A DNA stretch of 64,000 nucleotides, taken from the NCBI RefSeq assembly GCF_013760955.1, contig NZ_JACDUL010000002.1, positions 318,719 to 382,718 of the forward strand, in the 5' to 3' direction. The notes under the pieces were generated by a model. That model worked only from the letters and a program-made list of their open reading frames with translations, was not told the origin of the DNA and searched no databases. Shown in pieces: positions 180-14,100 of the stretch. Made by a program: the position numbers and the translations under genes. This DNA comes from Methanococcus maripaludis. GTDB lineage: Archaea; AGJL01; Methanococci; Methanococcales; Methanococcaceae. Position 1 is the stretch's first letter, and every line of letters starts with the position of its first letter.

Positions 180-560
180 AATCTGCCTCGCCTTGTGTTT
201 CTATTTTAAGTTCTTAAGTCTTATATCATGCAATAACATATATTCATGGCTTTTAAATATATATAATTAAACACGAAAAAGATGTACTGTTCATTTAGAT
301 AATATAAACTTAATCATGGGGCAAACCCGGTTAGATGTAACACCCGTACAATAGAGATAAATGACCAGATTTAAAGGTTCAAATTCCCCGATTTGATTAA
401 AACGGATGGAAAACGCTTATTTAATTTAAGGCTATTTTTAGAAATAAAGCAATATCTGACGATTAATTGTATAAAAACAGGTTATTTTTAATATATTTAA
501 AATGGGCTTCTTTTGGAAACCCTTATTTTTTTTCACATAAAGGTCGCCTATCTATTAATA

Positions 561-1158
561 TCCCTGACGGGAGGGTGTTCCAAGTGGCTCGCCTCACACC
601 TTTTTCTAGGTGTGGGCTTTCCACACAATTTGGGAGAATGACCACAGAACACCTAAGTCTGAGGTATAGCGGATTTATGAATGGCTTCGCCATTTATTCA
701 TTTAAGAATGCGTTAAAGTAATCGATTAAAAATGATTCGATTGCTCTCGCAGGTCGCGACCTGCTCAGGAGTTTCTCGAACTTTCGAAGATTGATTTTAT
801 TTTTTAATTTGTTCGCAAGTTCTCCGAAACCCCGCGCAATCTGGGAACTGTTCAGAGGTCAAGCCATAGCTTATACACCCCTTCGGGTGTATGTCGCCAT
901 ATGGCGAATTTTGTGCTTAGGGCGGATTGATTTTATCGCCCTTCGGGCTAATGCTACGGTAATACGGTTTAGACTGCCCTTTGACCATCTAAACCGATTT
1001 TCCGCCTTTATCGGGTTTTGCCCTTCGGGTTCCCTCGCTAGACTCGGCAAAACCTCGTAAAGCGAAAAATCTTAATGGTTTAGCTGGAGCCAAAGGTCGG
1101 AGAGAATACTAATCCCTACGGGGTTTAATTTGTATATTGGATTTTATTCCCTTCGGGG
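561..1158. repeat. Dense array of GC-rich hairpins in a gene-free zone
   Basis: The gene-free stretch 180-1576 contains, between 561 and 1158, at least ten inverted repeats of unusual quality. They are 595-601/608-614; 680-685/689-694; the 16-bp palindrome GCAGGTCGCGACCTGC at 749-764; 873-880/885-892 (8 bp, loop CTTC); the 14-bp palindrome TCGCCATATGGCGA at 894-907; 919-924/937-942 overlapping GCCC-TTC-GGGC at 938-948; 965-973/988-996 (9 bp); 1014-1022/1046-1054 (9 bp) enclosing CCCTTCGGG; and CCC-TAC/TTC-GGG units near 1114 and 1149. The block is much richer in G+C than its surroundings. Reading frames here are interrupted by the palindromes and resemble nothing. From 180 to 560 I see nothing clear. 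From 1160 to 1576 there are only two weak inverted repeats (1374-1380/1415-1421 and 1483-1487/1493-1497). A replication origin or structured RNA is possible. Confidence 0.7.
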
Positions 1159-1576
1159 TTTTAGTAACGGGTTTTAGGTTTTGGGAGTCTTTTGGATTTT
1201 AATTTTTTGAGTTCATTGTGCCAGGTCTTGAAGAATTGTTTTGAGTTAAAAAATATTAAAGTTAGAAAATGTTTGTTAAATTGAGTAAAAAGAATAAAAA
1301 AAGTAGATAACAATGAAATAAAGAATAAATATTAAGTTGAAACAATTTAAAAAGTAAAAAATATTTTTGTGAGTACGGAGAAAACAAATCAAAAAGGTGT
1401 ATGAATCATATGAACTCCGTAGTTAAATGATTAAACATATCCAGTTTCCAAAACCAAAGCAAACCTAAACAATCCCAAAGTTGGGGAACATATCCCCGAA
1501 TAATAGTTTAATTTGAGAATATAAAAAAAGTTGTAAATCTTGAAATCTTTAAAAGTTAAAAGTTAAAAATAGATTG

Positions 1577-1972
1577 TTAAAATTCATTACAGTAAAGTAC
1601 ATAATATTCTTCAACGTCTTTTGAATAGCCTATCAAATTTCCTTTCTTTATTTCATCCATTATTTGGTCTTCTTTTATAACATATCCAGCAATAAATCTA
1701 TCAAGTTTTAGATATCCGTCCTTTAAAACTTTTGATTCTTCATAATTCAGTTCTGAAATGTGGATTTTTTGAAATTCATTAAATATTATCCTGTTATCGT
1801 CTGCGATATCAATACATAATTTTCTATAAATTATATCTTCATCGTCTGGTTTTTCCAAAGTTTCCCTAAATTCCCGCATTGCGATAAATCCGGTTTCAAG
1901 ACCATTTAATATTAGTTTTAAATGGTTTTTTTCAAGATAATCGTGATTTGAACATATATTAACTGCTTGCAT
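1577..1972 (-). CDS. Small island protein, paralogue of its neighbour
   Basis: 131 residues, function not recognised. It starts at an ATG preceded by GAGGGGAT. The C-terminal third (QIMDEIKKGNLIGYSK near residues 103-118) closely resembles the same part of the upstream gene (QIIEELKKGNVVEYSK), and the remainder aligns loosely, so the two are tandem paralogues. No membrane segment or catalytic motif is visible; the protein is acidic and probably soluble. It lies 13 bp after the upstream gene and is likely co-transcribed. It is bounded on its 3' side by the long gene-free hairpin zone. Confidence 0.6.
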   Translation of the reverse strand: MQAVNICSNHDYLEKNHLKLILNGLETGFIAMREFRETLEKPDDEDIIYRKLCIDIADDNRIIFNEFQKIHISELNYEESKVLKDGYLKLDRFIAGYVIKEDQIMDEIKKGNLIGYSKDVEEYYVLYCNEF

Positions 1973-1985
1973 TTAAATCCCCTCG

Positions 1986-2375
1986 TTAATAATTTTCAGC
2001 AGGTATCGAATAAAAAAAGTTTCTTTCCTTGCTGTATTCGACAACATTTCCTTTTTTTAATTCTTCGATAATTTGTGATTCATCTATTGCTTTTGCATCT
2101 AAAATTTGAAGAACTACTAAAGAATCATCTTTTAAAATATTTGTTGAAGTTGCTTGCAGGTCTCCGAGTTTAATTTTTTGTTTTCGTACAACATAAACAA
2201 AATCTTCTTCTTCGGAAAATACACTGTTGTCCTGATAGATTTTTGGAAATGGTTTAAAAGTTCCAACATTTTCAAAATCTTTTATCGCACACATGAATAG
2301 ATTTGATATTGCAATAATTGATTCCGGAATTCCAATTCTTTCATATTCTGCGTCTATTCCACTTTCTGCCATCAT
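1986..2375 (-). CDS. Small island protein, paralogue of its neighbour
   Basis: About 129 residues from the ATG at 2375. The frame opens at a GTG at 2384, but that GTG lies inside the ribosome site GAGGTG, so one of the two following ATGs is the likelier start. The function is not recognised. The last 45 residues match the downstream gene (pattern Q-I-I/M-x-E-x-KKGN-hydrophobic-x-YSK), marking a tandem duplication. The middle holds an acidic SEEEDF and basic KQKIK segment; no membrane segment is seen. It is first of a two-gene unit reading away from the repeat-rich stretch 2400-2838, which must hold its promoter. Confidence 0.6.
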   Translation of the reverse strand: MMAESGIDAEYERIGIPESIIAISNLFMCAIKDFENVGTFKPFPKIYQDNSVFSEEEDFVYVVRKQKIKLGDLQATSTNILKDDSLVVLQILDAKAIDESQIIEELKKGNVVEYSKERNFFYSIPAENY

Positions 2376-2487
2376 TTTTAACACCTCTTTATGCCATCTG
2401 GAATTTTAAAAAGTTTTTAACGGTTTTTAAATTTTTTTTGTTATTTTAGAGTAAGGAACATTTTTAAAAGGTTTTGAAAGTTTTAAA

Positions 2488-2797
2488 GTAATATTAATCA
2501 CCTTTTAATAAATTAATCGAAATCGGTAAATAGTACAAATTTTAAAAATTATATTGCCTCATTTCAATGAGGCGTTAGTCCGGAATACGTTGTTTTGTGG
2601 AAAAAGCCTGATTCGAATAGCTTAAAACGGGGAAATATAATTGCCTTTGAAATATTGTTTTTTTCTTTTTTGATCCCTCAATATCAACTTGATAATTTTT
2701 CCTAATGTATTGATCACTTTATTTTAATCGAAACGATCAAATACTGCAATTTTCAAAAATATTTCTGCTTTAAGGTAATCTTAAAGTTTGGAAGAGA
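2488..2797. repeat. Two imperfect ~95-bp direct repeats, each ending in a hairpin
   Basis: Copy 1 is 2488-2585 and copy 2 is 2702-2797. They share TAAT-ATT-ATCAC, then TTAATCGAAA, then AAATA-T-CAA-TTT and AAAAAT blocks in the same order. Each then runs into a perfect hairpin of different sequence: GCCTCATT/AATGAGGC at 2556-2573 in copy 1 and CTTTAAG/CTTAAAG at 2768-2786 in copy 2. GGAA follows both hairpins (2582-2585 and 2790-2793). The spacer holds a TATCAA-C-TTGATA palindrome at 2682-2694. The region separates the end of the Rep operon from the promoter side of the two paralogous small genes. Nothing protein-coding is evident in 2400-2838. Confidence 0.6.
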
Positions 2798-2838
2798 TAT
2801 CACTTGAAAATTTAAGGACGTTCATCACCGCCTTAATT

Positions 2839-3144
2839 TCAATTTTTCCAATTTCTAACCGTATAATCAATATCTACAAAGTTTTCAGATACGATATAGA
2901 ACCTGTATTTACCTTTGGCTGTTTTTCTGATTTTTAAACACATTACATTTAGTTTTTGGGTTTTTAATCCGAGTGAAAACGTTAAATCGTTATTTTCTAG
3001 TTCTTCGTCGAAATTTTTTAAATCCATAGATTTTAGAAATTCTTCGGCTCTTTTTTTGGCTTCGTCGATTAGTTCTTTTTTAACTGTTTTGAGTTCTGAA
3101 TGGGGCATTATCATGTATTGCATATTATTTGGAATTGCGATCAT
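2839..3144 (-). CDS. Hypothetical protein ending the Rep-like operon
   Basis: About 101 residues from ATG at 3144. The upstream in-frame GTG at 3153 sits in the ribosome-site stretch CGTGATATTC, so I prefer the ATG. The function is not recognised. The N-terminal half is a likely helix (ELKTVKKELIDEAKKRAEEF), and the C-terminal half looks beta-rich (YRFYIVSENFVDIDYTV). It follows the Rep-like gene by about a dozen bases, on the same strand, and is presumably the last gene of the operon. No cysteine motif or membrane segment is present. Confidence 0.6.
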   Translation of the reverse strand: MIAIPNNMQYMIMPHSELKTVKKELIDEAKKRAEEFLKSMDLKNFDEELENNDLTFSLGLKTQKLNVMCLKIRKTAKGKYRFYIVSENFVDIDYTVRNWKN

Positions 3145-3155
3145 GAATATCACGT

Positions 3156-4370
3156 TTAAAAAAACCTCTTGGAATTACAACACGGGCAGGTGTATGACCC
3201 GTCATCACTATCAAAATACATGAGCCATCCACAATTGCAAACAAAATATTTTCCAAGAACTGATTTTAAGAAATTAATCATATCGGTTTTTACGTAAACA
3301 CCCCTTTTGTCCCCTTTTTCAATTAATCCACGTTTTAAAAGTTTATTTCTTAATCCCTGATTGTCTTTATCAAAAGTCATTTCTCCAATATTGCCATAAA
3401 TTAAGAATTTCAGATAATCCTTTTCAAGATTAAAAGCTAGGGCAAATTGAGTTAGTAAATCCTCGTGGTTTAGTTTGAAAGGGGTTATTTTATCTAAACT
3501 CAATCCATAGAGTTTTAAAACATCATGAATTGCACATAAAATGTGTTGTTCTAACATTTCAGGAGTTGAAAGTTTTAGGTAATCACTTGCAAAATTTTTA
3601 TGCAGCGTTATTTCCATTCTGCAAATTCCCGGAGCTTTTTGATAGAACTTCAATTGAGATTTTATTTTTTTAGAATTTTTGTTAAAGTACATAGTTCTTG
3701 TTAAATCGGAATGTTTGACTACTGATTTACATTTTGCAACATCTGAAAGCCATTCATACTCCATGACATCCCTATGAAGATATTCGCAAGGAATTTCTAT
3801 TGATTTTGGTGTAACGTCAATTTTTGTTAATTCGTAGTTAAACAGCTTTTTAATTAATTTTTGGTATTCTCTTCTAATTTCAAGGCATGATATATAGTAG
3901 AGATGTGCAAAATCTTTTAAAAGTTGTTTATTGTCCGTGTAATCGACAGGTAGAAAGTTTGTATCGTGAAAACCATAGTTTGGTTTTTTGATATTTTGCT
4001 TTTTCCGGTAGTATTTGAGCATATTAACGTAAACTATTGCCATGTGTGGCTCTCTCATGGATATCTGCATCCATGCAATATTTTCGCCCTCAAAATTTTC
4101 TAAGGGAAATTGTAAACCCGAAGTATGACCCCGTTTGTCTTCTGTCCTACATTTAAAGTGTTCCCATTTTTGATAAACGTCTTTTCTGTAAGTTTCTGAA
4201 CCTTTTGGAATGGAATTATTTCTTTTCCATTCATCGATTTGTTTGTGTATCTCGTCAGAATATACTGTAAACGTACATCTATCAAGTGTTATTCTCGGGT
4301 CATTTAGTGTTGGATATTTCGGGTTTACGTTTTCATGAATTTTGGGTCTTAATTCGGCTAATGCTTCCAT
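3156..4370 (-). CDS. Plasmid/phage Rep-like protein with C-terminal zinc ribbon
   Basis: About 404 residues from the ATG at 4370. The frame extends to a TTG at 4394, but the site GGAGAAGGT ahead of the ATG and the TAAA-ATG junction with the preceding gene favour 4370. The block LKFYQKAPGICRMEITL near residues 243-259 fits the K-x-Y-x-K...R-x-E signature of replication initiators of the filamentous-phage gene II / phage CRI type (family knowledge, matched by eye). No HUH motif is apparent. The end carries CxC...CxxC (CNCGWLMYF and CPCCNSKRFF), a probable zinc ribbon. It is the largest gene of the minus-strand operon. The replication role is inference; a different DNA-binding protein remains possible. 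Confidence 0.5.
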   Translation of the reverse strand: MEALAELRPKIHENVNPKYPTLNDPRITLDRCTFTVYSDEIHKQIDEWKRNNSIPKGSETYRKDVYQKWEHFKCRTEDKRGHTSGLQFPLENFEGENIAWMQISMREPHMAIVYVNMLKYYRKKQNIKKPNYGFHDTNFLPVDYTDNKQLLKDFAHLYYISCLEIRREYQKLIKKLFNYELTKIDVTPKSIEIPCEYLHRDVMEYEWLSDVAKCKSVVKHSDLTRTMYFNKNSKKIKSQLKFYQKAPGICRMEITLHKNFASDYLKLSTPEMLEQHILCAIHDVLKLYGLSLDKITPFKLNHEDLLTQFALAFNLEKDYLKFLIYGNIGEMTFDKDNQGLRNKLLKRGLIEKGDKRGVYVKTDMINFLKSVLGKYFVCNCGWLMYFDSDDGSYTCPCCNSKRFF

Positions 4371-4371
4371 T

Positions 4372-4812
4372 TTAAAGACCTTCTCCGAAAACAATTTCTT
4401 TTACTAAATCTTCGTTTAGATTCATGACTTTTGCATTTTCTAAAATCTGAGTTTTACTCATTCCCCCATTTTTGAGGAGTTTTAAGTTTTCTATGTTTTC
4501 AATATCTGCGTAATAGTCTACAAGTTGTTTTACTTCTTCATTTTCTTGATATTCGTTTATTATTGTTTTTATATCAAGATATGAGAACTGTAAAAAGCCG
4601 TAGTTTTTTGTACCGCCTGAAATATTAATCCTGCCTTTTGCTTTCAAAGATTTGATATAATCTTTATCGGGATATCCTTTTGAATTTTTGATAATATTTC
4701 CCTTAGCGTCCTTTTTGTCTATGGCTTCAGTTCCGGGAAAAAGTTTCACTGACCCGTGAGGGAGCTGAATTTCTATAACTTCTGGAATCTGTTCTAGGTT
4801 CGGGGCTTCCAT
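4372..4812 (-). CDS. Hypothetical protein of the Rep-like operon
   Basis: 146 residues from an ATG preceded by AAGGTGTTAGGAT. The product is not recognised. It has a charged middle (KKDAKGNIIKNSKGYPDKDY) and a C-terminal helical part with MSKTQILENAKVMNLNEDLV, which could be a small helix-turn-helix-like or protein-contact segment. Its first 86 bases overlap the end of the preceding gene in another frame. Its stop is one base from the ATG of the Rep-like gene, so translation is probably coupled. A role in copy control or replication is a guess from position only. Confidence 0.55.
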   Translation of the reverse strand: MEAPNLEQIPEVIEIQLPHGSVKLFPGTEAIDKKDAKGNIIKNSKGYPDKDYIKSLKAKGRINISGGTKNYGFLQFSYLDIKTIINEYQENEEVKQLVDYYADIENIENLKLLKNGGMSKTQILENAKVMNLNEDLVKEIVFGEGL

Positions 4813-5077
4813 ATCCTAACACCTTGATTTCTGTTTTCAATAATGTTTTTTTAACCTCGATTGTGTCATCTCTTGAAAGATTGAGGTGTATATCGAAGTA
4901 GAAATAGTATTTATCTTTTTTTTCGTCTTCTGCAATGGCTTTGTTCATCTCAACAGTCATGATTTTTTTAATCTGATAATTCATGTCTTGAATTTCTTTT
5001 GAAACTGGAGCAGTTATCGGAGTTGAGAGAATTTTTAATTTTTTTGGAAATATTGTGGCTTTGAATGTTTGATACAT
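4727..5077 (-). CDS. Hypothetical protein of the Rep-like operon
   Basis: 116 residues; its ATG touches the TAA of the preceding small gene (TAAATG), with the weak site CCGTGAT ahead. The product is not recognised. The body reads as alternating strands (KYYFYFDIHLNLSRDDTIEV). The last 30 residues are basic, serine/arginine-rich and low in complexity, and lie wholly within the 86-bp overlap with the next gene, so the tail may be unconstrained. Co-transcription with the genes on both sides is near certain from the spacing. Confidence 0.5.
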   Translation of the reverse strand: MYQTFKATIFPKKLKILSTPITAPVSKEIQDMNYQIKKIMTVEMNKAIAEDEKKDKYYFYFDIHLNLSRDDTIEVKKTLLKTEIKVLGYGSPEPRTDSRSYRNSAPSRVSETFSRN

Positions 5078-5233
5078 TTAATCACGGTTTTTTACCTCCG
5101 AATCTTTGAGGATTGTTAAAATGTATTCTTTTCCCAAATATTCTCTAGGACATGGCGCTCTTGCTGAATTTCCGTGTTCTTTAATTCTTCCGGTGAATGT
5201 TGTGCTTTTTACTCCATTTGATTTGATGTTCAT
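5078..5233 (-). CDS. DUF2080-like small protein
   Basis: 51 residues from an ATG with a textbook ribosome site (AAAGGAGGT). The core KEHGNSARAPCPREYLGKEY fits the pattern of the DUF2080 family, short archaeal proteins often found with transposons and other mobile DNA: G-N-S-A, a P-[KR]-x-[YW]-[LI]-G-K turn, then beta strands. It resembles AbrB/SpoVT-type swapped-hairpin DNA-binding folds (inference). It is the first gene of the Rep-like operon, so a role as operon repressor or partition/copy-control factor is possible. The next gene starts immediately at its stop codon. Confidence 0.65.
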   Translation of the reverse strand: MNIKSNGVKSTTFTGRIKEHGNSARAPCPREYLGKEYILTILKDSEVKNRD

Positions 5234-5271
5234 GTGGGTTTACCTCCTTTTTATAAGTCAATACCCTAAAA

Positions 5272-5387
5272 GATATTGATTGTATTTTAACAACTTATTG
5301 TATAATTAAACGAGTATTTAAATGTTGTTGTTTTTTAACAATCGATATCATAAAAACAATTTAAAATAGATATAGATGGATATCCAT
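5272..5387. promoter_or_regulatory. Divergent promoter with operator-like inverted repeats
   Basis: The 182-bp gap between the minus-strand Rep-like operon and the plus-strand winged-helix gene holds two symmetrical sites. One is a 12-bp inverted repeat with one mismatch (GATATTGATTGT at 5272-5283, ACAATCGATATC at 5338-5349) bracketing AACAAC/GTTGTT. The other is the perfect 12-bp palindrome ATGGATATCCAT at 5376-5387, 28 bp ahead of the winged-helix start. Placement suggests that the regulator controls itself and the operon; that is inference. Confidence 0.55.
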
Positions 5388-5415
5388 ATTATTACAAAAA
5401 AGTGAACTGATTGTC

Positions 5416-5970
5416 ATGTTACGACTGATTGCAAAAAAGCATGTAAAAGAAATATTAAGATTATTAGAATCAAACGATGAAATGTATTTTAGTGAAATTA
5501 AAAAAGCTTTAGAACTTAATCCAAGAAATTTAACAGATTTATTAAACGAATTATACGAAAGTAAGTTAATTAATAAAAGAATAGATGAAGATAATGTTAA
5601 ACTTTCAAAAGTTTATTATAGAATTACATATGAGGGTAAACTTATTTTAGATGTCTATGAGATGCTTGAAGACTTAGAAGGAAAAACTAATTTTGTTGCT
5701 TTAATAAAATATCAGAACGAAAAACTCTTTGAAAAAATTCAAAAATTTGAAGAAGGAGATATTATTTCTGCCAGAGCTACAATAGGGCCCAATTCGGCAA
5801 TTTTAGATTTCAGATTAGTAGAAAAAGATGGGGAAAAGACACTGGAGGTAAGCGACTTCTCTAAGGGACTCGCAGAAGAACTTTTTGTATATGGTAATGA
5901 TAGGATTATAACAGTTTATGAAATTTTAAAAAAGATAGGAACAGTTGAAAACCTTTACCCTACCAAATAA
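5416..5970 (+). CDS. Winged-helix transcriptional regulator of the island
   Basis: 184 residues, start ATG with GTGA ten bases ahead. Residues 10-75 form a winged helix-turn-helix (KEILRLLESNDEMYFSEIKKALELNPRNLTDLLNEL then a wing with YYRITYEGK), like HxlR/ArsR-type archaeal regulators. The rest is a longer alpha/beta domain (IISARATIGPNSAILDFRLVEKDG) that I do not recognise and that may sense a ligand or partner. It is divergent from the Rep-like operon, with palindromes between them, so it is probably the repressor governing plasmid functions. No membrane segment or zinc motif is present. Confidence 0.75.
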   Translation: MLRLIAKKHVKEILRLLESNDEMYFSEIKKALELNPRNLTDLLNELYESKLINKRIDEDNVKLSKVYYRITYEGKLILDVYEMLEDLEGKTNFVALIKYQNEKLFEKIQKFEEGDIISARATIGPNSAILDFRLVEKDGEKTLEVSDFSKGLAEELFVYGNDRIITVYEILKKIGTVENLYPTK

Positions 5971-6068
5971 CGATATTTTTCTATTTTTCGGATTTAAAAG
6001 CGGTTGATTTGTTATTTAAGATTGATTTATGTTTATTAAGTGGGGAAAAATAAATTAATGGTGGGAAA

Positions 6069-7727
6069 ATGGGGATTAAAAAGTATTTAATTAATATTTG
6101 GAACAAATTTAATGAATTAAATAAAATTACTCAATATTATACAAAATATGCATTTTTTATCTGTGCTATTTTTTCTGTGGTTTTTACAGTATTTACATTG
6201 AAAGTTATTAACTGGAATGCAAATCCTTCTGATTTTGCTACTATGCTTTTGTACTTATTCAGTACGTCAGCACAAAGTCAAGCTGCTTTTGGAGGAATTA
6301 TTATTTCTGTAACGTTAGTAGGATTGCAACTCATATCTGAAAAATATAATACAAAACTTACAACTATTTTTTTAGGGAGTAAAACATTTTGGTTAGTAAT
6401 TATGGCATACATTTTTTCAATATTATTTGATATTGCCGTAAGTACCATAATTCCGGTGAATTCCAATGTTATTGAGCCTATTTTTTGGATTTTAAATAAA
6501 TTCCATTTAATATTTGTAGGATTTTTTCTTTTATATTTTAATTTTATGATGGTTCCATTCTATCTGGGATTTATTATACAATGTTCAAAACCTCGTGTAC
6601 TGATTAGCTATTTATGTAGCGGGCTAACTCATGAAAAAATAAACGAAAAATTGAAAAAAGAAGAATATATTTTTGACCCGTTCGAACAATTATTTAAAAA
6701 AATAATGCATGAAGAGTCGCCAAATAATTTTGATTTTCTTTTCGAGTATTTTTTTAATGGATGGTACTACGTGGCAGAAAAAAATATATATTGCGATAAA
6801 ACCATCGATAAAAAATATTATTTTAAATTTAATTATGAATTCTTTATTTTATGTCTTTCGCTTGCAAATTATGCCGTTAAAACTAAAAATGGGGAATATT
6901 TAGAGCATATTTTTAGATGTATTTATAAAATGTTCGAAAGAATGAATAAAAGAATTACGTGGAATTTTGAAGAAAGTAATTATATGGGAGATTTTATTGA
7001 CGACACCGTATCGAAAATTGAGAATTTAAGTAAAAATAATGGTTTTGAATCCGAAAGAGAAAGTTTACAGTGTATATTGCTAAATATTTATAAAATTGGG
7101 CTTAATGCAATAAATATTGGACAAGTTAAAAATATTAATTGTAATATGGACTATTGTGCGCATGTACTTTTTGACATATATGAATCAGAACATATTACGT
7201 TTAGAAACCTCCTCAATAACTTAATTGTCGAATTAATAGAACTAATTCCAAAAAGTAACGAAAATAGGAGTATTAAATATATATTACAAAGTATTTCTGA
7301 GAAAGTTGACTCAAAATTAAAAAGTATGTACTCCAAAAACACAATGGGTGGCAAAATATGGTTATATCGAGGTACTTTTATTCAAACTTTTGAGTTTTAC
7401 CTAATAATTGCACTATTACAAAATTATGACGATTCTGTCGAAGAATATATTGACGAGTTTATACTGCCATTGGACAAGTTTTTAAAACCTTACGGACCAG
7501 TTTGGCAGTTGAAAAAGTTAGAAAACAGTAAAAAATTCATATATCTGGGGTGGATAGAACCACTAGTTTCTATTGATGAATATTATGATAATTTTGAAAA
7601 AATAAAAGAGTATATTACTAAAAAAATAAGAGAAAAAAGAATTGAAGATATAGAAAATTGGAAATCCAAAGCCAACAAATTAGACACTTTATTTATAATA
7701 GACACCGAAGGAAATTTTAAAGAATAA
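6069..7727 (+). CDS. Four-TM membrane protein with large soluble domain (DUF2254-like N-terminus)
   Basis: 552 residues, start ATG behind GGTGGGAAA. Four hydrophobic helices are visible at about 27-49, 70-90, 105-128 and 142-170. The remaining 380 residues are helical, charged and presumably cytoplasmic. The second-helix region (SAQSQAAFGGIIISVTLVGLQ) recalls the DUF2254-type membrane family, seen by eye only. No nuclease, ATPase or transporter motif is evident in the soluble part. It stands alone in the accessory island as a single-gene transcription unit. Long membrane-anchored proteins in such islands are often defence effectors, but nothing here shows that function. Confidence 0.65.
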   Translation: MGIKKYLINIWNKFNELNKITQYYTKYAFFICAIFSVVFTVFTLKVINWNANPSDFATMLLYLFSTSAQSQAAFGGIIISVTLVGLQLISEKYNTKLTTIFLGSKTFWLVIMAYIFSILFDIAVSTIIPVNSNVIEPIFWILNKFHLIFVGFFLLYFNFMMVPFYLGFIIQCSKPRVLISYLCSGLTHEKINEKLKKEEYIFDPFEQLFKKIMHEESPNNFDFLFEYFFNGWYYVAEKNIYCDKTIDKKYYFKFNYEFFILCLSLANYAVKTKNGEYLEHIFRCIYKMFERMNKRITWNFEESNYMGDFIDDTVSKIENLSKNNGFESERESLQCILLNIYKIGLNAINIGQVKNINCNMDYCAHVLFDIYESEHITFRNLLNNLIVELIELIPKSNENRSIKYILQSISEKVDSKLKSMYSKNTMGGKIWLYRGTFIQTFEFYLIIALLQNYDDSVEEYIDEFILPLDKFLKPYGPVWQLKKLENSKKFIYLGWIEPLVSIDEYYDNFEKIKEYITKKIREKRIEDIENWKSKANKLDTLFIIDTEGNFKE

Positions 7728-7969
7728 CTCTTTTTTTAATTTTAATATGATTTTTCCAAAAATTTATCTTTTTTATTGGGTCTGTATCTTGATTTGATAC
7801 ATGTTTTAAAATTTTACTTTAAAATGAGTTCTAATTTCTGATTTAAATTGTGAAATTTTAAAAATATAGTTAAAATATTGATTATATTTCAATTATGGGT
7901 TTAGACCTTGACAATACCCCTTTAAAATCTTGATACCCCCATTATTTGATTAAATCGCAAATAAGATAT

Positions 7970-8248
7970 ATGGTATCAAAAATATATCTTGAAAATTTAA
8001 AAGTTGGGACAAAGATTAAAATGAATATTGAAACTAGAATAAGAAAATATTTTAAAAAAGACATTTCACACATGCTGTTTAGTGTTCTTTCAGTAATGCT
8101 TTTAACATTTATTGTTTTAAATGTATTTCAATTAGTTATAGTTCGAAATCCGTTTTTAAATGAACTATTGCATAATCTTGATATTTTAACAGGCTTTTTC
8201 ATGGTCGTGTCAGCAATTGGAATTGTCGTTATGGAGATTATTTTTTAA
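7970..8248 (+). CDS. Small two-TM protein, doubtful
   Basis: The frame is open from a TTG at 7946. ATGs occur at 7970 and 8021, none with a good ribosome site, so the start is uncertain (92 or 75 residues). Two hydrophobic helices (MLFSVLSVMLLTFIVLNVFQLVIV and a C-terminal one ending VVMEIIF) follow a basic leader (RIRKYFKKD). The stop codon falls inside the 47-bp repeat described at 8244-8290. It could be a real small membrane protein, or a remnant trimmed by a recombination event at that repeat. From 7728 to 7945 I see only AT-rich sequence with a GTATC/GATAC hairpin. Confidence 0.35.
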   Translation: MVSKIYLENLKVGTKIKMNIETRIRKYFKKDISHMLFSVLSVMLLTFIVLNVFQLVIVRNPFLNELLHNLDILTGFFMVVSAIGIVVMEIIF

Positions 8249-8290
8249 AAAAATAAAGTTTAGAAATTAATTTCCATTACTCTTTGATAC
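8244..8290. repeat. Copy 1 of 47-bp repeat (integrase 3' end), candidate att site
   Basis: This 47-bp stretch matches 10491-10537 with at most three differences: 13 identical bases (TTTAAAAAAATAA), three variable, then 31 identical. The second copy covers the last ten codons of the integrase gene, its stop and 16 bases beyond. Within the identical part lies a perfect 12-bp palindrome GAAATTAATTTC (8263-8274). Identity beyond the coding end, with drop-off farther into the gene, argues for a recombination site rather than mere gene remnant. Confidence 0.7.
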
Positions 8291-8320
8291 CATCTTTAAA
8301 GAGCCTGTTTATTTATGCTA
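8260..8320 (-). pseudogene. Decayed C-terminus of a tyrosine integrase
   Basis: Read on the minus strand this stretch gives N-K-Q-A-L-stop-R-W-Y-Q-R-V-M-E-I-N-F-stop. The intact integrase ends NKEALQREYQRVMEINF. Upstream of this the similarity vanishes, so only about the last 17 codons survive and they contain an in-frame stop. It is either a remnant of an older integrase or the by-product of integration at the gene's 3' end. Confidence 0.7.
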
Positions 8321-8411
8321 AAAATAATAATTAAAAATTCTTAGCAAAAGCAAACGTCATTTAATCCCGTTAAAATAGTTATTATGTATTTTTTTAAAGT
8401 ATTATGCCTTT

Positions 8412-8460
8412 TGTGGGCCCACATTCACAAATTAGTCATTTTTATAAGTTGGTTGTGAAT
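8412..8460. repeat. Palindrome TGTGGGCCCACA with adjoining hairpin
   Basis: A perfect 12-bp palindrome TGTGGGCCCACA occupies 8412-8423. It is followed directly by an 8-bp inverted repeat ATTCACAA (8423-8430) / TTGTGAAT (8453-8460). It opens the structured gene-free stretch 8249-9740. Confidence 0.6.
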
Positions 8461-8520
8461 TTAAAGACCTAAATTCATCTCAATTACATAATGTATTTAT
8501 AAAATATGATTTTATCTAGT

Positions 8521-8622
8521 AATGGTTCTGTTTTAGTTCTTACGTTGTAGCACCTGAAACTTATGGTGTTGTCCTCGATAGAGTTAAATCCCCAATCATT
8601 ACTAAAACAGGACCACTTTTTT
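8521..8622 (+). ncRNA. Possible structured small RNA with terminator-like end
   Basis: A 14-bp outer stem (8524-8537 with 8601-8614, one G-U pair) encloses two smaller hairpins. The first is about 8 bp around CACC/GGTG (8547-8554/8565-8572), the second CTC-GATA-GAG (8574-8583). Together they form a compact three-way junction. A run of six T follows (8617-8622), as in transcript ends. The single-stranded GTTAAATCCCC (8583-8593) recurs at 9168. The strand is assigned from the T run. It could instead be a DNA secondary structure used in replication. Confidence 0.45.
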
Positions 8623-8765
8623 ATTTATAAATAATCGGGATTTTAGTTATTATTCTTTTATTTAAATTTTAAAATGGATTTTGATCGAAATTTGATCCAG
8701 AATAATTAAAAACATACACAAAAAATATTTATAGATCAAAATTCATGTTTAATGGGCCCCCTACT

Positions 8766-8952
8766 TGGTGTCAATACGAAATAAATTATTATCTTGAAAA
8801 TATCCGAATTCTTATGAATTTATTGGGGGCCGGATATTTTTCACTTGTAAATTGTTATGGCTTTTTTCATATTTCAATTAGTAAAATTTATATACTTAAA
8901 AAATCTTTTAGCTACAATGTCCCAGGTAACTAGTTAAATCGTATTGACACCA
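8766..8952. mobile_element. MITE-like element with 14-bp terminal inverted repeats
   Basis: The perfect inverted repeat TGGTGTCAATACGA (8766-8779) / TCGTATTGACACCA (8939-8952) bounds 187 bp with no convincing gene. If the ends are taken as GGTGTC...GACACC, ACTT sits directly on each side (8763-8766, 8952-8955), a possible 4-bp target duplication. Inside is a second, 12-bp inverted repeat (TGAAAATATCCG at 8795-8806, CGGATATTTTTCA at 8831-8843). The size and layout fit a non-autonomous transposable element. A 62-codon reading frame within it shows no protein-like features. Confidence 0.5.
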
Positions 8953-9156
8953 CTTTGAAATTTTTTACCTTTTTGGCCTCAAGATAGAATTTAAGGTGAA
9001 TTGGGACACTCACCTCTAATTTCAAGAAAATTGATTTTTTTTAATAAATAATGATTTTAAATTTAAAAAACAGATTTTAAAAAAGTTTTTTTCAAAAAGG
9101 AATAAAAAATATCGCTAGTATTTATTACTGCATTTATATTTATTCCGTTAATCCTA

Positions 9157-9217
9157 TCCTCGAGTTAGTTAAAATCCCCATAATAACTAACTAAGTTGGA
9201 ACCGAAGTTCCATTTTT
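9157..9217 (+). other. Tandem hairpins, second one terminator-like
   Basis: GTTAGTTA/TAACTAAC (9164-9171/9184-9191) presents AAATCCCC in its 12-base loop. Next comes GGAAC-CGAA-GTTCC (9198-9211), followed by ATTTTT. The lead-in TCCTCGA and the GTTAAAATCCCC stretch repeat the motif order of the structure at 8572-8593. A further perfect 8-bp hairpin ATTAATTT/AAATTAAT lies at 9303-9322. No convincing gene is seen in 9218-9740. Confidence 0.5.
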
Positions 9218-9740
9218 GATCTATTATTCACGTAATATTAATAGTTTACGATCAAACGGCCATAAAACTTTATTATTTGGGGGTATAACATAATTAAAGG
9301 GTATTAATTTATTTAAATTAATATTGTGGGGATATTATGAAGGTTATTTGATAAATCTTTATAGAATATCACTAAAATTAAATCAAAAATAACATATAGT
9401 ATATTAAAAATAAGATACGTCGTGGCATGACCACAATATTCACATGTCTGAATTAAGTTAAAATATGCTATGTTGCTTAATTCTATAAATTCCTCTCCGA
9501 TAAACTCTACGTCCAAAAGAGTTTAAACTTAGAAAATTAACCCGAAAAGTTTTTTTCTTTTTTAAATTTTTAATCCCAAGTATAACCATTAAATAGTCAT
9601 TAAATACATAATTTTAACACGTCAGTAAAATGACATTTATTGTAGCTATTTTTAATATCTTTAAAAGAATTTTAAGCAGTGATTAAACTTTTATCTTGAA
9701 AATGAGTTTTAATTTTTTGATTTGAAAAAAGTAAAAAAGT

Positions 9741-10142
9741 TTAAGCAATCGCACTTGTTGCCTGAATATTAAATGATTCGTTTGAAAGCCCATATTCATT
9801 AAGAGCTTTTGCGTTTATTGACTTTTCAAATGGTTTATTTCTTTTTAAAACTTCTAAAATTATGTTTATTTTAACGGTTTCTTTGTAAACTTCTATAAGT
9901 CCGCTTGTTCCAATAATGTTGCTTAAATCAAATTTAGTTACTCCAAATATTTCAGAAGCATCAATTATTTCTACACCAGTTATTATTTTTTCCCCTGTTT
10001 TAGTTACACCCATATCTAAATAGATATTATCTACTTCGATTGTGTGATCGTATTCGGCTTCAATGTTTTTTCTTTTGATATACATTGCATCAGCGAGAGG
10101 ATCATAATTTAAAGTTACATCTTTACCTTCAAATTTACTCAT
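9741..10142 (-). CDS. DUF2283 protein, antitoxin-like
   Basis: 133 residues, ATG with GAGGAC ahead. The DUF2283 signature is clear: LNYDPLADAMYIK near residue 11 and later a ...TGVEIIDASEIFG segment (family pattern YDPEADALYI ... GIEIL-AS). Downstream of the domain is about 50 residues of unrecognised helical tail. It overlaps the end of the DUF4258 gene by 8 bases. DUF2283 genes commonly sit next to DUF4258 genes and the pair is regarded as toxin-antitoxin-like; which partner neutralises which is not shown by the sequence. The position beside an integrase fits a stability module. Confidence 0.75.
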   Translation of the reverse strand: MSKFEGKDVTLNYDPLADAMYIKRKNIEAEYDHTIEVDNIYLDMGVTKTGEKIITGVEIIDASEIFGVTKFDLSNIIGTSGLIEVYKETVKINIILEVLKRNKPFEKSINAKALNEYGLSNESFNIQATSAIA

Positions 10143-10431
10143 GTTTTGTCCTCCGTTTAGAATCTTGGGGAATTGGTGAAATAAAGTAGAATTTATTGAA
10201 TCTGTATGCTATAACGAGAATAATGTCTTTTTTTGAATCATATTCATAATATAATTTAAATGTATCAGAATTTTGATTAATTATTCCTTTACACTTTTTA
10301 GTTTTGATTATATTATAAAGTTCATCAAATTTAAAATTTCTTTCTTTCAACCTATGAACAAAGTGTTCAGTTAGTTCATAATTGGTTTTGGAAAGTGTTT
10401 TTATAATTTCTAAAAATTCTTCAATTTCCAT
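10135..10431 (-). CDS. DUF4258 protein, toxin-like
   Basis: 98 residues, ATG behind TTTGTGAAA. The pattern LTEHFVHRLKERNFKFDELYNII and the following beta strands (FKLYYEYDSKKDIILVIAYRF) fit DUF4258, a small fold related to RelE/HigB-like toxins (H-x(3)-R-x(3)-R signature, family knowledge). It is first in a two-gene unit with the DUF2283 gene, overlapping by 8 bases, the usual arrangement for such pairs. The target, if any, cannot be read from the sequence. It is transcribed in the same direction as the integrase upstream. Confidence 0.75.
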   Translation of the reverse strand: MEIEEFLEIIKTLSKTNYELTEHFVHRLKERNFKFDELYNIIKTKKCKGIINQNSDTFKLYYEYDSKKDIILVIAYRFNKFYFISPIPQDSKRRTKHE

Positions 10432-10490
10432 ATTTTCACAAATGAGTAGTGATTATTTATCATTTAGGTTATTAAAAACAGTTTTTTCAG

Positions 10491-10537
10491 TTTAAAAAAA
10501 TAAGAATTAGAAATTAATTTCCATTACTCTTTGATAC
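10491..10537. repeat. Copy 2 of 47-bp repeat (integrase 3' end)
   Basis: This is the partner of the copy at 8244-8290. It contains the integrase stop codon, its last ten codons and 16 downstream bases, with the 12-bp palindrome GAAATTAATTTC at 10510-10521. The interval between the copies is 2.2 kb and carries the toxin-antitoxin-like pair and the structured gene-free zone. Confidence 0.7.
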
Positions 10538-11355
10538 TCTCTTTGCAGAGCTTCTTTGTTTTTGTGCAGATATATCGAAGTTGTGGATAAATCTTCATGA
10601 CCCAAAATTAAAGAGAGTGATTTTAAGTCAATTCCACGTTCTAACATGCTTGTAGCAAATGTATGTCTTAGAATGTGGGGCGTTATCCTAATATGTATGT
10701 TTGGAGCTACTTCGTTAATGTATTCTTTATATAATGTTAGACTTCTCTGTGAAAAATGTCCCCTGTAAACTCCAAGAAATAAATTATCACATTTTGGATC
10801 TCGATAACTTCTTTCCTTGATATATTCCCTTAAGTGAAATGCCAAATCCCTATCAAAAAATACATATCTATCTTTTTTACCTTTTCCAGAACCGATAAAT
10901 GCAATTTTTGAATCCAAATCTACATCTTGAACTTTGAGGTTTACAAGTTCAGATATTCGAACTCCGGTTTTAAGGATAAACATAGTAATTACATAGTAGT
11001 CGTATCTTTTGATATTTGATAAAAGATAGTTTGCTTGGGAAGTAGTTAAATAATTTCTTTCCTTTTTTTCACGTCTGAGGGTCTTTAAAAACTTTTTAAC
11101 TGGATTGTCCAGTAAATATTTTTCTTCAATTCCCCAGTCATAAAATCGGCTTACTGTTCCAAGTACTGACATTTTACTATTTTTAGTTGCTTTGTGATTT
11201 GTATAAAATAAAATGACATCATTTACCATGACATCTCGCCATCTTTTATTGGCATACTTTTGGAAAGTTCTTAATCCATATTTATACGAGTTTATTGTGG
11301 ATTTAGAAAGTCCTGTACAAAATTCTAAGTATCTTTTAGAGATTTCATCTTGCAT
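10507..11355 (-). CDS. Tyrosine recombinase/integrase
   Basis: 282 residues, ATG with ACAGGTG ahead. The N-terminal SAM-like core-binding domain (residues 1-85: STINSYKYGLRTFQKYA) is followed by the catalytic domain. The catalytic residues are recognisable: Arg in TGVRISEL, a beta-hairpin Lys in GKGKKDR, H-x-x-R in TPHILRHTFATS, His in LGHEDL, and the nucleophile Tyr in TTSIYLH. It is full length and apparently intact, of the XerC/D-like archaeal type. It presumably integrates and excises the island. It lies 15 bases after a small DNA-binding-like gene. Its last 31 bases are repeated at 8260-8290, which suggests the attachment site overlaps the gene's end. Confidence 0.9.
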   Translation of the reverse strand: MQDEISKRYLEFCTGLSKSTINSYKYGLRTFQKYANKRWRDVMVNDVILFYTNHKATKNSKMSVLGTVSRFYDWGIEEKYLLDNPVKKFLKTLRREKKERNYLTTSQANYLLSNIKRYDYYVITMFILKTGVRISELVNLKVQDVDLDSKIAFIGSGKGKKDRYVFFDRDLAFHLREYIKERSYRDPKCDNLFLGVYRGHFSQRSLTLYKEYINEVAPNIHIRITPHILRHTFATSMLERGIDLKSLSLILGHEDLSTTSIYLHKNKEALQREYQRVMEINF

Positions 11356-11370
11356 TTTAAAACACCTGTT

Positions 11371-11901
11371 TTAAAGTTCTTGAAACTCTACACTTGCGAA
11401 TCTGCCACTTGGATTTTCAAAAGCTATAAATTTATCTCCCCTTCTTTCGATGTAGTCATTAAATAACGGGTCTTGTATGACCACTTCTCTAAACATGTTG
11501 ACCAATCTTGGATTATCAGTGATTCCCATTTTTTCTACTAATTCCGCAAATGTTAAAGTTTGAGGGTACACATTTCCGATGATTTCAAATGCTTTATCGA
11601 TTAATTCTCTCTTTTCTTTTCCTGTTGAGTTCTCACGTAATTCTCTTGATATATGGTGTACCGATTTGAGTAATTTGTCTTGTGTTGCGTTGTTTTTCAA
11701 TTCTAGGGTGTTTAAAATGTTTAATATATGGTCTAACTTATCAGTTATGTTTGGATTTTTTTCTTTCTCGTAGTTTTTGAGAGTAAATACTATTGAAAAC
11801 CTTATAAAGTCGCTAAAACTATTAAAACCTAGTTCTTTAGATTCTTTTTTGTAAAGTTTTAGTTTTTCTTCGTCATGGAAGTAAACTTCTGTTCTAGGCA
11901 A
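11371..11901 (-). CDS. Ribbon-helix-helix-like partner of the integrase
   Basis: About 176 residues from a TTG at 11901 with GGTGG just ahead; an upstream in-frame TTG at 11916 lacks a good site. The N-terminal 45 residues (RTEVYFHDEEKLKLYKKESKELGFNSFSDFIRFSIVF) look like a ribbon-helix-helix unit: a short strand, then two helices with the typical GFNSFSDFIRF turn. A charged helical middle (possible coiled coil) and a C-terminal domain follow. Its position directly before the integrase suggests a repressor or excision factor, which is inference. The stretch 11917-12057 has an ATGGTAA/TTACCAT inverted repeat that may be its operator. Confidence 0.6.
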   Translation of the reverse strand: MPRTEVYFHDEEKLKLYKKESKELGFNSFSDFIRFSIVFTLKNYEKEKNPNITDKLDHILNILNTLELKNNATQDKLLKSVHHISRELRENSTGKEKRELIDKAFEIIGNVYPQTLTFAELVEKMGITDNPRLVNMFREVVIQDPLFNDYIERRGDKFIAFENPSGRFASVEFQEL

Positions 11902-12057
11902 CTTACCACCTGCCAAATATTTTAATAAGTACAGTATATATAGTATGGTAAACGTCGAAATCTACGTTATATTACCATGATAAGACTTATGGAATTTAGA
12001 TAATCATTATTCTTTGAAAAACATTAAAATCATTTGGAAAATTTGGAAGAGATACGT

Positions 12058-14100
12058 ATGAAAACAGAGATGACGAACGTTGATATCAGTGCCGCAGTAT
12101 CCGAACTTCAAAAAGTAATCAACGGAAAATTAGACAAGGCTTTTTTAGTAAATAACCAGGATGGAAAGGAATTAATTTTAAAAGTACACATTCCTGAAAT
12201 TGGTTCAAGAGAAATCGCAATAGGCCTTGGAAAGTATAAATACATAACAACTACGGAATACGAGAGAGAAAAACCAAGAAACCCCCCTTCATTTGTAATG
12301 TTACTTAGGAAACACTTGAAAAACATTAAAATAACGAGTGTTGCCCAGCATAACTTTGACAGAATTGTAATTTTTAATTTTGAATGGAACGAATTAAAAT
12401 ATAAACTGATTATCGAGTTATTCGGGGATGGAAATGCAATACTCCTCGATAGTGAAGATAAAATCATTTTGCCATTAAAAATTGAAAGGTGGAGCACAAG
12501 AAAGATTGTTCCAAAAGAAATTTACAAGTTCCCGCCTCAAAAGGACCTCGATCCAAAAAATTTAGAGTACTCGCTTGCTAAAGAATTATTTATCGAAGAA
12601 TTCCATAAGGAAGAAAACAAAGATACAGAAGTTGTAAGAATAATTTCAAGAATTTTTGGGCTTGCGGGAGTTTATTCAGAAGAAATTTGTTTAATTTCAG
12701 AAATAGATAAAAATTTGAAAAATCCGAAAAACGAAGAAATTAAAAAACTTTTCGAAGGCTCAAAATCATTTTTTAAGAGAGCATTTAATGAAATAAAACC
12801 AAAATCAGTACTTAAAAATGGGGAATTCATAGATATCGACCCAATTGATTTAAAAATGCATGAAAATTTAAAAGAAAATGAAATTAAACATTATGAAAGT
12901 TTTTTAACTGCACTTGATGAATATTTCTCAAGATTTATAATGAAAAAAGAGATTAAGCAGGCTGAATCAAAACTACAAAAACTCGTGAAAAAACAGGAGC
13001 GTATATTAAAAAGCCAGCTTGAAACTAAAGAAAAATACGAAAAACAATCCATTTTAAACCATAAACGTGGAGATTTGATTTACGCAAATTACTCACTAGT
13101 AGATGAAATTGTAAGCACAATTAAGCTTGCAAGAGAAAAAATGGACTGGAATGGAATTAAAAATGTAATTAAAGAAAATAAAACTCATCCAGTTTTAAGT
13201 AAAATAATAAACGTGAATGAAAAAAATGCAGAATTAACACTAAATCTATCTGCTGACTATGGAAATGGACTTATTGAAGATACAGTACCTGTAGATTTAA
13301 GAAAAAATGCTTTTGAAAATGCAGACATAGTTTACCAAAAATCAAAGAAATTTAAAAATAAAGTTCACGGTGTAATTGAAGCTTTAAAAATTTCTGAGAA
13401 AAAACTTGCTGAATTGAAAGAAAAAGAAAAACTTGATTCAGAAGTACTGAAAGAAAAAGAAGAAAATATTAAGAAAAAGGAAAGAAAAGTCCTTAAATGG
13501 TATGAAAAATTAAAATGGACGGTTATTGGCGGATATTTAATTGTTGCAGGAAAAGATGCGACTACAAACGAGATGTTGATAAAAAGATATGTTGAAAAAA
13601 ACGATATAGTATTCCACACACTCATGGAAGGAGCCCCATTTACAATTATTAGAACAGAAGGCTCTGAAGAAATACCTGATGAAAATATCCTGTTTGAAGT
13701 TGCAAAATTTGCAGCATCACACTCAAGAGCTTGGAAACTTGGAATTGGAAGTGCAGATGTCTACTGGGTTAGGCCAGACCAGATTTCAAAAACCGCAGAA
13801 AGTGGGGAATTCTTAAAAAAAGGAGCTTTTGTAATTAGGGGAAAAAGAAACTTCATAAGAAGTGCTGCACTTGAACTTGGAATCGGTATGTTAGAGTACG
13901 ATGGAAAATTAAGAATAACCACCGCCCCTGAAAGTGTTACAAAAGAAACCTTTAAAAAATGGCTTTTGTTAAAACCGGGTAAATTAAAAAAGAGCGATCT
14001 TGTAAAAGAGCTTTTAAAAGAATTTGGTGAATTCGAAGTAGATGATGAAGATATTTTAAGGGCACTTCCTCCAGGAGAGAGCGAAATAAAACTAAAATAA
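12058..14100 (+). CDS. rqcH: Ribosome quality control protein RqcH/NEMF
   Basis: About 680 residues from the ATG at 12058 (MKTEMTNVDISA). The open frame reaches a TTG at 12034, but M-K-x-E-M-[ST]-[NS]-x-D begins archaeal members. It has an N-terminal NFACT-N domain with IFNFEWNELKYKLIIELFGDGNAIL, a long coiled coil (residues 290-490, KKQERILKSQLETKEKY), and then the NFACT-R domain with WYEKLKWTVIGGYLIVAGKDATTNE and HTLMEGAPFTII. The family binds split large ribosomal subunits carrying stalled peptidyl-tRNA and, in bacteria and eukaryotes, directs untemplated tailing. It is a core gene marking the right edge of the island. Confidence 0.88.
   Translation: MKTEMTNVDISAAVSELQKVINGKLDKAFLVNNQDGKELILKVHIPEIGSREIAIGLGKYKYITTTEYEREKPRNPPSFVMLLRKHLKNIKITSVAQHNFDRIVIFNFEWNELKYKLIIELFGDGNAILLDSEDKIILPLKIERWSTRKIVPKEIYKFPPQKDLDPKNLEYSLAKELFIEEFHKEENKDTEVVRIISRIFGLAGVYSEEICLISEIDKNLKNPKNEEIKKLFEGSKSFFKRAFNEIKPKSVLKNGEFIDIDPIDLKMHENLKENEIKHYESFLTALDEYFSRFIMKKEIKQAESKLQKLVKKQERILKSQLETKEKYEKQSILNHKRGDLIYANYSLVDEIVSTIKLAREKMDWNGIKNVIKENKTHPVLSKIINVNEKNAELTLNLSADYGNGLIEDTVPVDLRKNAFENADIVYQKSKKFKNKVHGVIEALKISEKKLAELKEKEKLDSEVLKEKEENIKKKERKVLKWYEKLKWTVIGGYLIVAGKDATTNEMLIKRYVEKNDIVFHTLMEGAPFTIIRTEGSEEIPDENILFEVAKFAASHSRAWKLGIGSADVYWVRPDQISKTAESGEFLKKGAFVIRGKRNFIRSAALELGIGMLEYDGKLRITTAPESVTKETFKKWLLLKPGKLKKSDLVKELLKEFGEFEVDDEDILRALPPGESEIKLK

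Follow-up and report, generated by a model that had tools for sequence, protein, structure and literature searches.

The repeat found at the 3' end of an integrase gene in Methanococcus maripaludis is read here, with a probability of about 0.55, as a recombination scar within one integrated element, generated when related elements fused via their integrase tails. Its two copies are located in the 64,000-nucleotide stretch of DNA that was analysed (the window). Copy 2 (10491-10564, minus strand) comprises the tail of the intact integrase gene plus 16 bp of downstream DNA, and copy 1 (8244-8317, minus strand) is an orphan integrase tail of ~20 codons, probably a relic left by recombining related elements or modules.

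A first-pass annotation of this DNA had reported 47-bp repeats at 8244-8290 and 10491-10537, and comparison of the two sites confirmed them: only 3 of the 47 positions differ, all at 8257-8259. The similarity extends without gaps over the 74 bp of copies 1 and 2 (63/74 identical; the second-best 74-bp offset within the window gives 40/74). Over the final 31 bp of the integrase gene the two copies do not differ at all (31/31); this is the longest exact stretch shared by any pair of sites in the window (k=24 scan). Upstream of this run, within the gene, the match is 19/27, and the adjoining codons of copy 1 are, as had been described, decayed and interrupted. Translation of the minus strand gives NKQAL*RWYQRVMEINF* for copy 1 and NKEALQREYQRVMEINF* for the intact gene; copy 1 thus matches the gene end with one in-frame stop and is therefore an integrase tail carrying a stop, i.e. 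a pseudogene remnant.

The identity was also said to continue past the gene. Downstream of it 13 of 16 bases do match, but these 13 bases form a pure A/T run overlapping the stop codon of a 100-aa open reading frame that copy 1 abuts (ORF100; 7946-8248, plus strand, convergent with copy 1; a small hydrophobic protein with homologues in G000:C3, G001 and G004), and the left edge of the repeat is consequently soft. The 12-bp palindrome put forward as a possible core, GAAATTAATTTC, is present, but it is coding (E-I-N-F) and was common to none of the paralogous integrase ends. A search of the whole genome with the 28-bp core (≤3 mismatches) detected no site beyond the two copies.

All 11 mismatches lie outside the 31-bp run (clustering p ~0.016), and divergence steps from 0/31 to 8/27 at a single point, a pattern that a chimeric junction would produce. 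A perfect 31-bp match next to sequence with 30% divergence could also represent a real strand-exchange core. Alternatively, repair or homologous recombination may have copied the ORF100/integrase junction during insertion, with no second integrase involved, and copy 1 may then have drifted. Such a plain duplication would agree with the limits of the duplicated stretch (the ORF100 stop codon and a point inside the integrase gene) and with the rearranged remnants that the locus between argS and the NFACT gene carries in other genomes too; even drift, however, explains the contrast between 0/31 and 8/27 poorly, and we regard this origin as rather unlikely.

We read the surrounding DNA as a single integrated plasmid- or virus-like element of ~11.7 kb (about 303-12004), with argS on its left and the NFACT gene (12034-14100) on its right. 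The homology shared with the chromosomes of G001 and G004 ends at position 303 of the window and resumes in or near ORF181, while in G003 the argS-side and NFACT-side flanks lie ~140 bp apart. At the homology breakpoint there is an 11-bp direct repeat, ATTTAGATAAT (293-303 and 11994-12004), a short and weak candidate att site from which the putative limits of the element (293-12004) are taken.

The order of genes is the same as in relatives of the element: ORF181 and integrase, variable cargo, HTH gene, II/X-like Rep gene and a GC-rich hairpin end, the backbone ORF181-int-cargo-HTH-p4372-Rep being common to several elements. The tyrosine recombinase (integrase; 10507-11355, minus strand, 282 aa) is an intact open frame with a full PF00589 match (E=1.8e-36), so that the gene is whole in the integrated state; it scored 201.8 bits against the archaeal XerA equivalog, below the cut-off of 220. 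ORF181 (11371-11916, minus strand) lies directly upstream of it; at nine related loci a homologue likewise precedes the integrase. The winged-helix regulator of the backbone (5416-5970, plus strand; PF02002 and PF01047) is conserved in position. The replication protein (3156-4394, minus strand) shows a weak match to the II/X phage/plasmid family (TIGR01629, 23.6 bits, below the cut-off of 29) and is 49% identical to its counterpart in L076. Matches of 74-75% to the GC-rich multi-hairpin far end (667-947) were seen once each in G000 and G004 and twice in G001, and one of these four lies downstream in the L076 element; this end is possibly the replication origin for the II/X-like Rep. Searches of a plasmid collection yielded neither a DNA match nor a Rep match, and scans of genome contigs and IMG/VR detected distant integrases only.

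Because of the shared backbone and the shared hairpin far end, the 2.2 kb between the copies is placed inside this element, and we read it as occupying the cargo zone between the integrase and the winged-helix gene. Judged by the distribution of its sequences, it is made up of two independent, unrelated parts, a non-coding array and a DUF4258/DUF2283 gene pair. The array of conserved elements (8311-9650; blocks A 8383-8640, C 8765-8956, B 9075-9260 and D 9353-9641) has matches of about 68-85% elsewhere in G000, G001 and G004. Its blocks occur without the pair on contig C3 of the same genome, where an ORF100-like gene adjoins block A, at the argS-NFACT site of G001, where the array adjoins a decayed integrase, and at 702 kb in G004, beside an ORF181 remnant. 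The ORF100/array neighbourhood may predate the repeat and the fusion. Folding of blocks A and C gives long closing hairpins, and block B retains the motif GTTAAAATCCCCATAATAAC; none of the blocks matched Rfam at gathering score. Structured non-coding sequences of the A/B/C type share the motifs GTTAAAATCCCCATAATAAC and AGTTAAATCGTATTGACA, and some of them adjoin small hydrophobic ORFs (G000, G001, G004); relatives outside the window are located at L062 13846-14414 and 2467-2649, L063 8290-8928 and L061 11303-12571.

The DUF4258/DUF2283 pair is a mobile two-gene module (9725-10498, minus strand; genes 10135-10431 and 9741-10142, overlapping by 8 bp) and is a predicted toxin-antitoxin-like pair, although both Pfam scores were below gathering (20.4 versus 25 and 19.9 versus 23 bits, respectively). 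Two G003 loci carry the module at 88% identity and a third carries part of it at 80%, with homology stopping at the module edges; the two genes appear to have been transferred together at two loci and in part at the third, and neither the array nor the repeat lies alongside. The three G003 copies are found in differing contexts (L066 7210-7993, L067 7249-7989 and L073 6047-6534, the third with deletions). A literature search found no paper naming both DUF4258 and DUF2283. Since the array and the pair occur separately elsewhere, their distribution is not that of one cassette.

The attachment site was located in a relative of the element at 729.9 kb in G001 (17.2 kb; integrase 54% identical to that of the window). 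This relative is bounded by the 17-bp sequence ACTGTCATCATACAACG, present ~210 bp upstream of ORF181 and again 17.2 kb further, and its flanks, once joined, align without interruption to the window's genome (95%) and to G004 (87%). Both genomes carry the empty site, which is intact in the former. Together, the 17-bp sites and the empty site place the crossover of the relative on the ORF181 side, opposite the repeat discussed here. In G002, G005 and G006, elements with more distant integrases (40-42% identical) carry that target sequence immediately upstream of ORF181. By homology, the window's own integrase would be expected to attach at the ORF181 end. In the elements L076-L083, no convincing direct repeat was found within the DNA covered. 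In four genomes the attachment target of this integrase family lies at the 3' end of the conserved sequence TGGTAGC..TGTCAGATAGTGCTGAT..TCATC..TCAGCGGGGGTAACTGTCATCATACA (L171 about 1775-1870, i.e. G000:C2 near 246.7 kb; L173, L174, L180 and L181), which had no match in Rfam. Our guess is that it is possibly an H/ACA-like small RNA, as it ends in ACA; if it is an RNA gene, it would constitute a non-tRNA integration target.

These data bear directly on the earlier proposal that the 2.2 kb is a cassette moved by the integrase, which would act at its own 3' end and leave the segment between attL and attR with a core of 31-47 bp. A perfect 31-bp core with diverging arms, placed next to the integrase gene, and the presence of orphan tails at two further loci are what such a system might produce. 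However, none of the relatives searched contained the 2.2 kb as a unit, no repeated tail was detected near the related integrase genes examined (the single repeat there, in L077, belongs to a dispersed intergenic type), the core has no further copy in the genome, and the att site mapped in the relative lies on the other, ORF181 side of the integrase gene. With its interval split into two separately distributed modules, the cassette is unlikely, and we give it little credence. The view of the repeat as a recombination site survives in part: recombination through integrase tails fits the data, but integrase-mediated attachment, as mapped in the relative, takes place at the other end of the gene. 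An integrase cutting elsewhere had been named as evidence against the proposal; recombination upstream of ORF181 was indeed found for the G001 relative, and for the window's integrase it is presumed by homology. That the integrase also recombines at its own 3' tail, besides the site upstream of ORF181, seems very doubtful; if it did, related elements would swap or capture cargo there and orphan tails would be the footprints.

The other suggestion of the first-pass annotation, that two elements are joined here, fits the data and is the better of its two alternatives. In the fusion that we favour, copy 2 would be the functional integrase's own tail, and copy 1 would be an orphan tail joined to the end of ORF100, derived from a related integrase or duplicated from the window's own. 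Two related elements, either stacked at the argS-NFACT site or recombining at a matching ORF100/integrase-tail junction, would have fused; most of the second integrase would then have been lost, with copy 1 as the remainder, and the interval would have come to hold two modules of separate origin, the array and the gene pair. In the simplest version, the partners recombining through matching tails would be two related elements or one element and a cargo block. We infer both the fusion and the order of fusion and loss, and the crossover may have been homologous or made by an integrase. In favour of the fusion, orphan tails of about 20-25 codons recur at two G001 loci, where two 1.3-kb regions each contain one, intact and about 22 codons long. 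Against it, the pre-fusion step was seen in no sequenced strain, and the att site of the window's integrase rests on the 11-bp repeat. The two G001 regions are 95% identical (L086 5531-6823 and L087 5162-6459); they are the two copies of a duplicated region and amount to a single event.

A further possibility is that copy 1 lies at the edge of another element, now degraded, that used an integrase tail as its chromosomal target. In favour of this, the orphan tails of both independent cases begin near the codon for the catalytic tyrosine, but there are two such cases only, and neither a second end nor another element could be delimited; we consider this origin highly improbable.

Other loci contain internal fragments of integrase or ORF181, and such sites are therefore graveyards of related elements. 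The G004 locus, where ORF100 and remnants of ORF181 are near neighbours and the 2.2 kb is missing, resembles the single-copy strain that the first-pass annotation had suggested looking for, but the similarity of its ORF100 flank to the repeat is not significant (p ~0.2) and it was not counted as such.

SSV-type (type I) integrases carry attP inside the integrase gene, and integration splits the gene into N and C parts. The window shares with them an orphan integrase fragment lying apart from the main gene. Here, however, the main gene is intact and both copies are C-terminal tails, so this is no N/C split of the SSV type. Integron cassette capture likewise places a passenger segment next to a tyrosine recombinase gene, but in the present case the site does not recur and the integrase scores far below integron integrase cut-offs; the repeated sites that define an integron-like system are lacking, the core occurring only twice in the genome and no repeated tail being seen near the related integrase genes examined. 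The element conforms to the type II (intact integrase) mode, with a target of another kind. Elements of the pT26-2 family in Methanococcales encode a type II (non-split) integrase and target tRNA-Ser/Leu genes (PMC6972569). Like them, the present element has an integrase that is intact once integrated and a Rep gene with variable cargo; their direct repeats near the integrase end may have a counterpart in the 11-bp candidate here, as in the 17-bp repeat of the G001 relative. Unlike theirs, the targets here are intergenic or are the 3' end of a conserved sequence other than a tRNA.

What appeared to be a new cassette thus falls within a family of integrated, Rep-bearing elements of Methanococcus, and the attachment point of one relative is now located. 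The orphan tails are a warning that a repeat at an integrase end alone does not equal an attachment site. The interest of the locus lies mostly in side observations: the cargo (toxin-antitoxin-like pairs, unclassified structured non-coding blocks and one CRISPR-Cas locus) makes the family worth cataloguing. The CRISPR-Cas locus is carried by the 17.2-kb G001 element (L074 14100 to L075 11296; G001:C1:729099-746296). Pfam matches identified Cas5, Cas7, TM1802, Cas1, Cas2 and Cas4 (cas genes at L075 2029-7527), and an array with the repeat CTAAAAGAATAACTTGCAAAATAACAAGCATTGAAAC lies at about L075 7880-9908; an entire CRISPR-Cas system is contained within an integrase-bounded element.

A shared core, AAAGAGTAATT, seen near several integrase ends was dropped, since TTTAAAAAGAGTAATTT is a dispersed intergenic repeat of Methanococcus genomes. 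This repeat, centred around TCAAATTTAAAAAGAGTAATTTAAAATTTAAGATAAGAATGGTTATTAAAATTTAAA, is present in L077 (~4194-4258 and 8029-8120), in L071 (~11995-12060) and in many places in G001, which alone contains seven exact copies of its 17-bp core.
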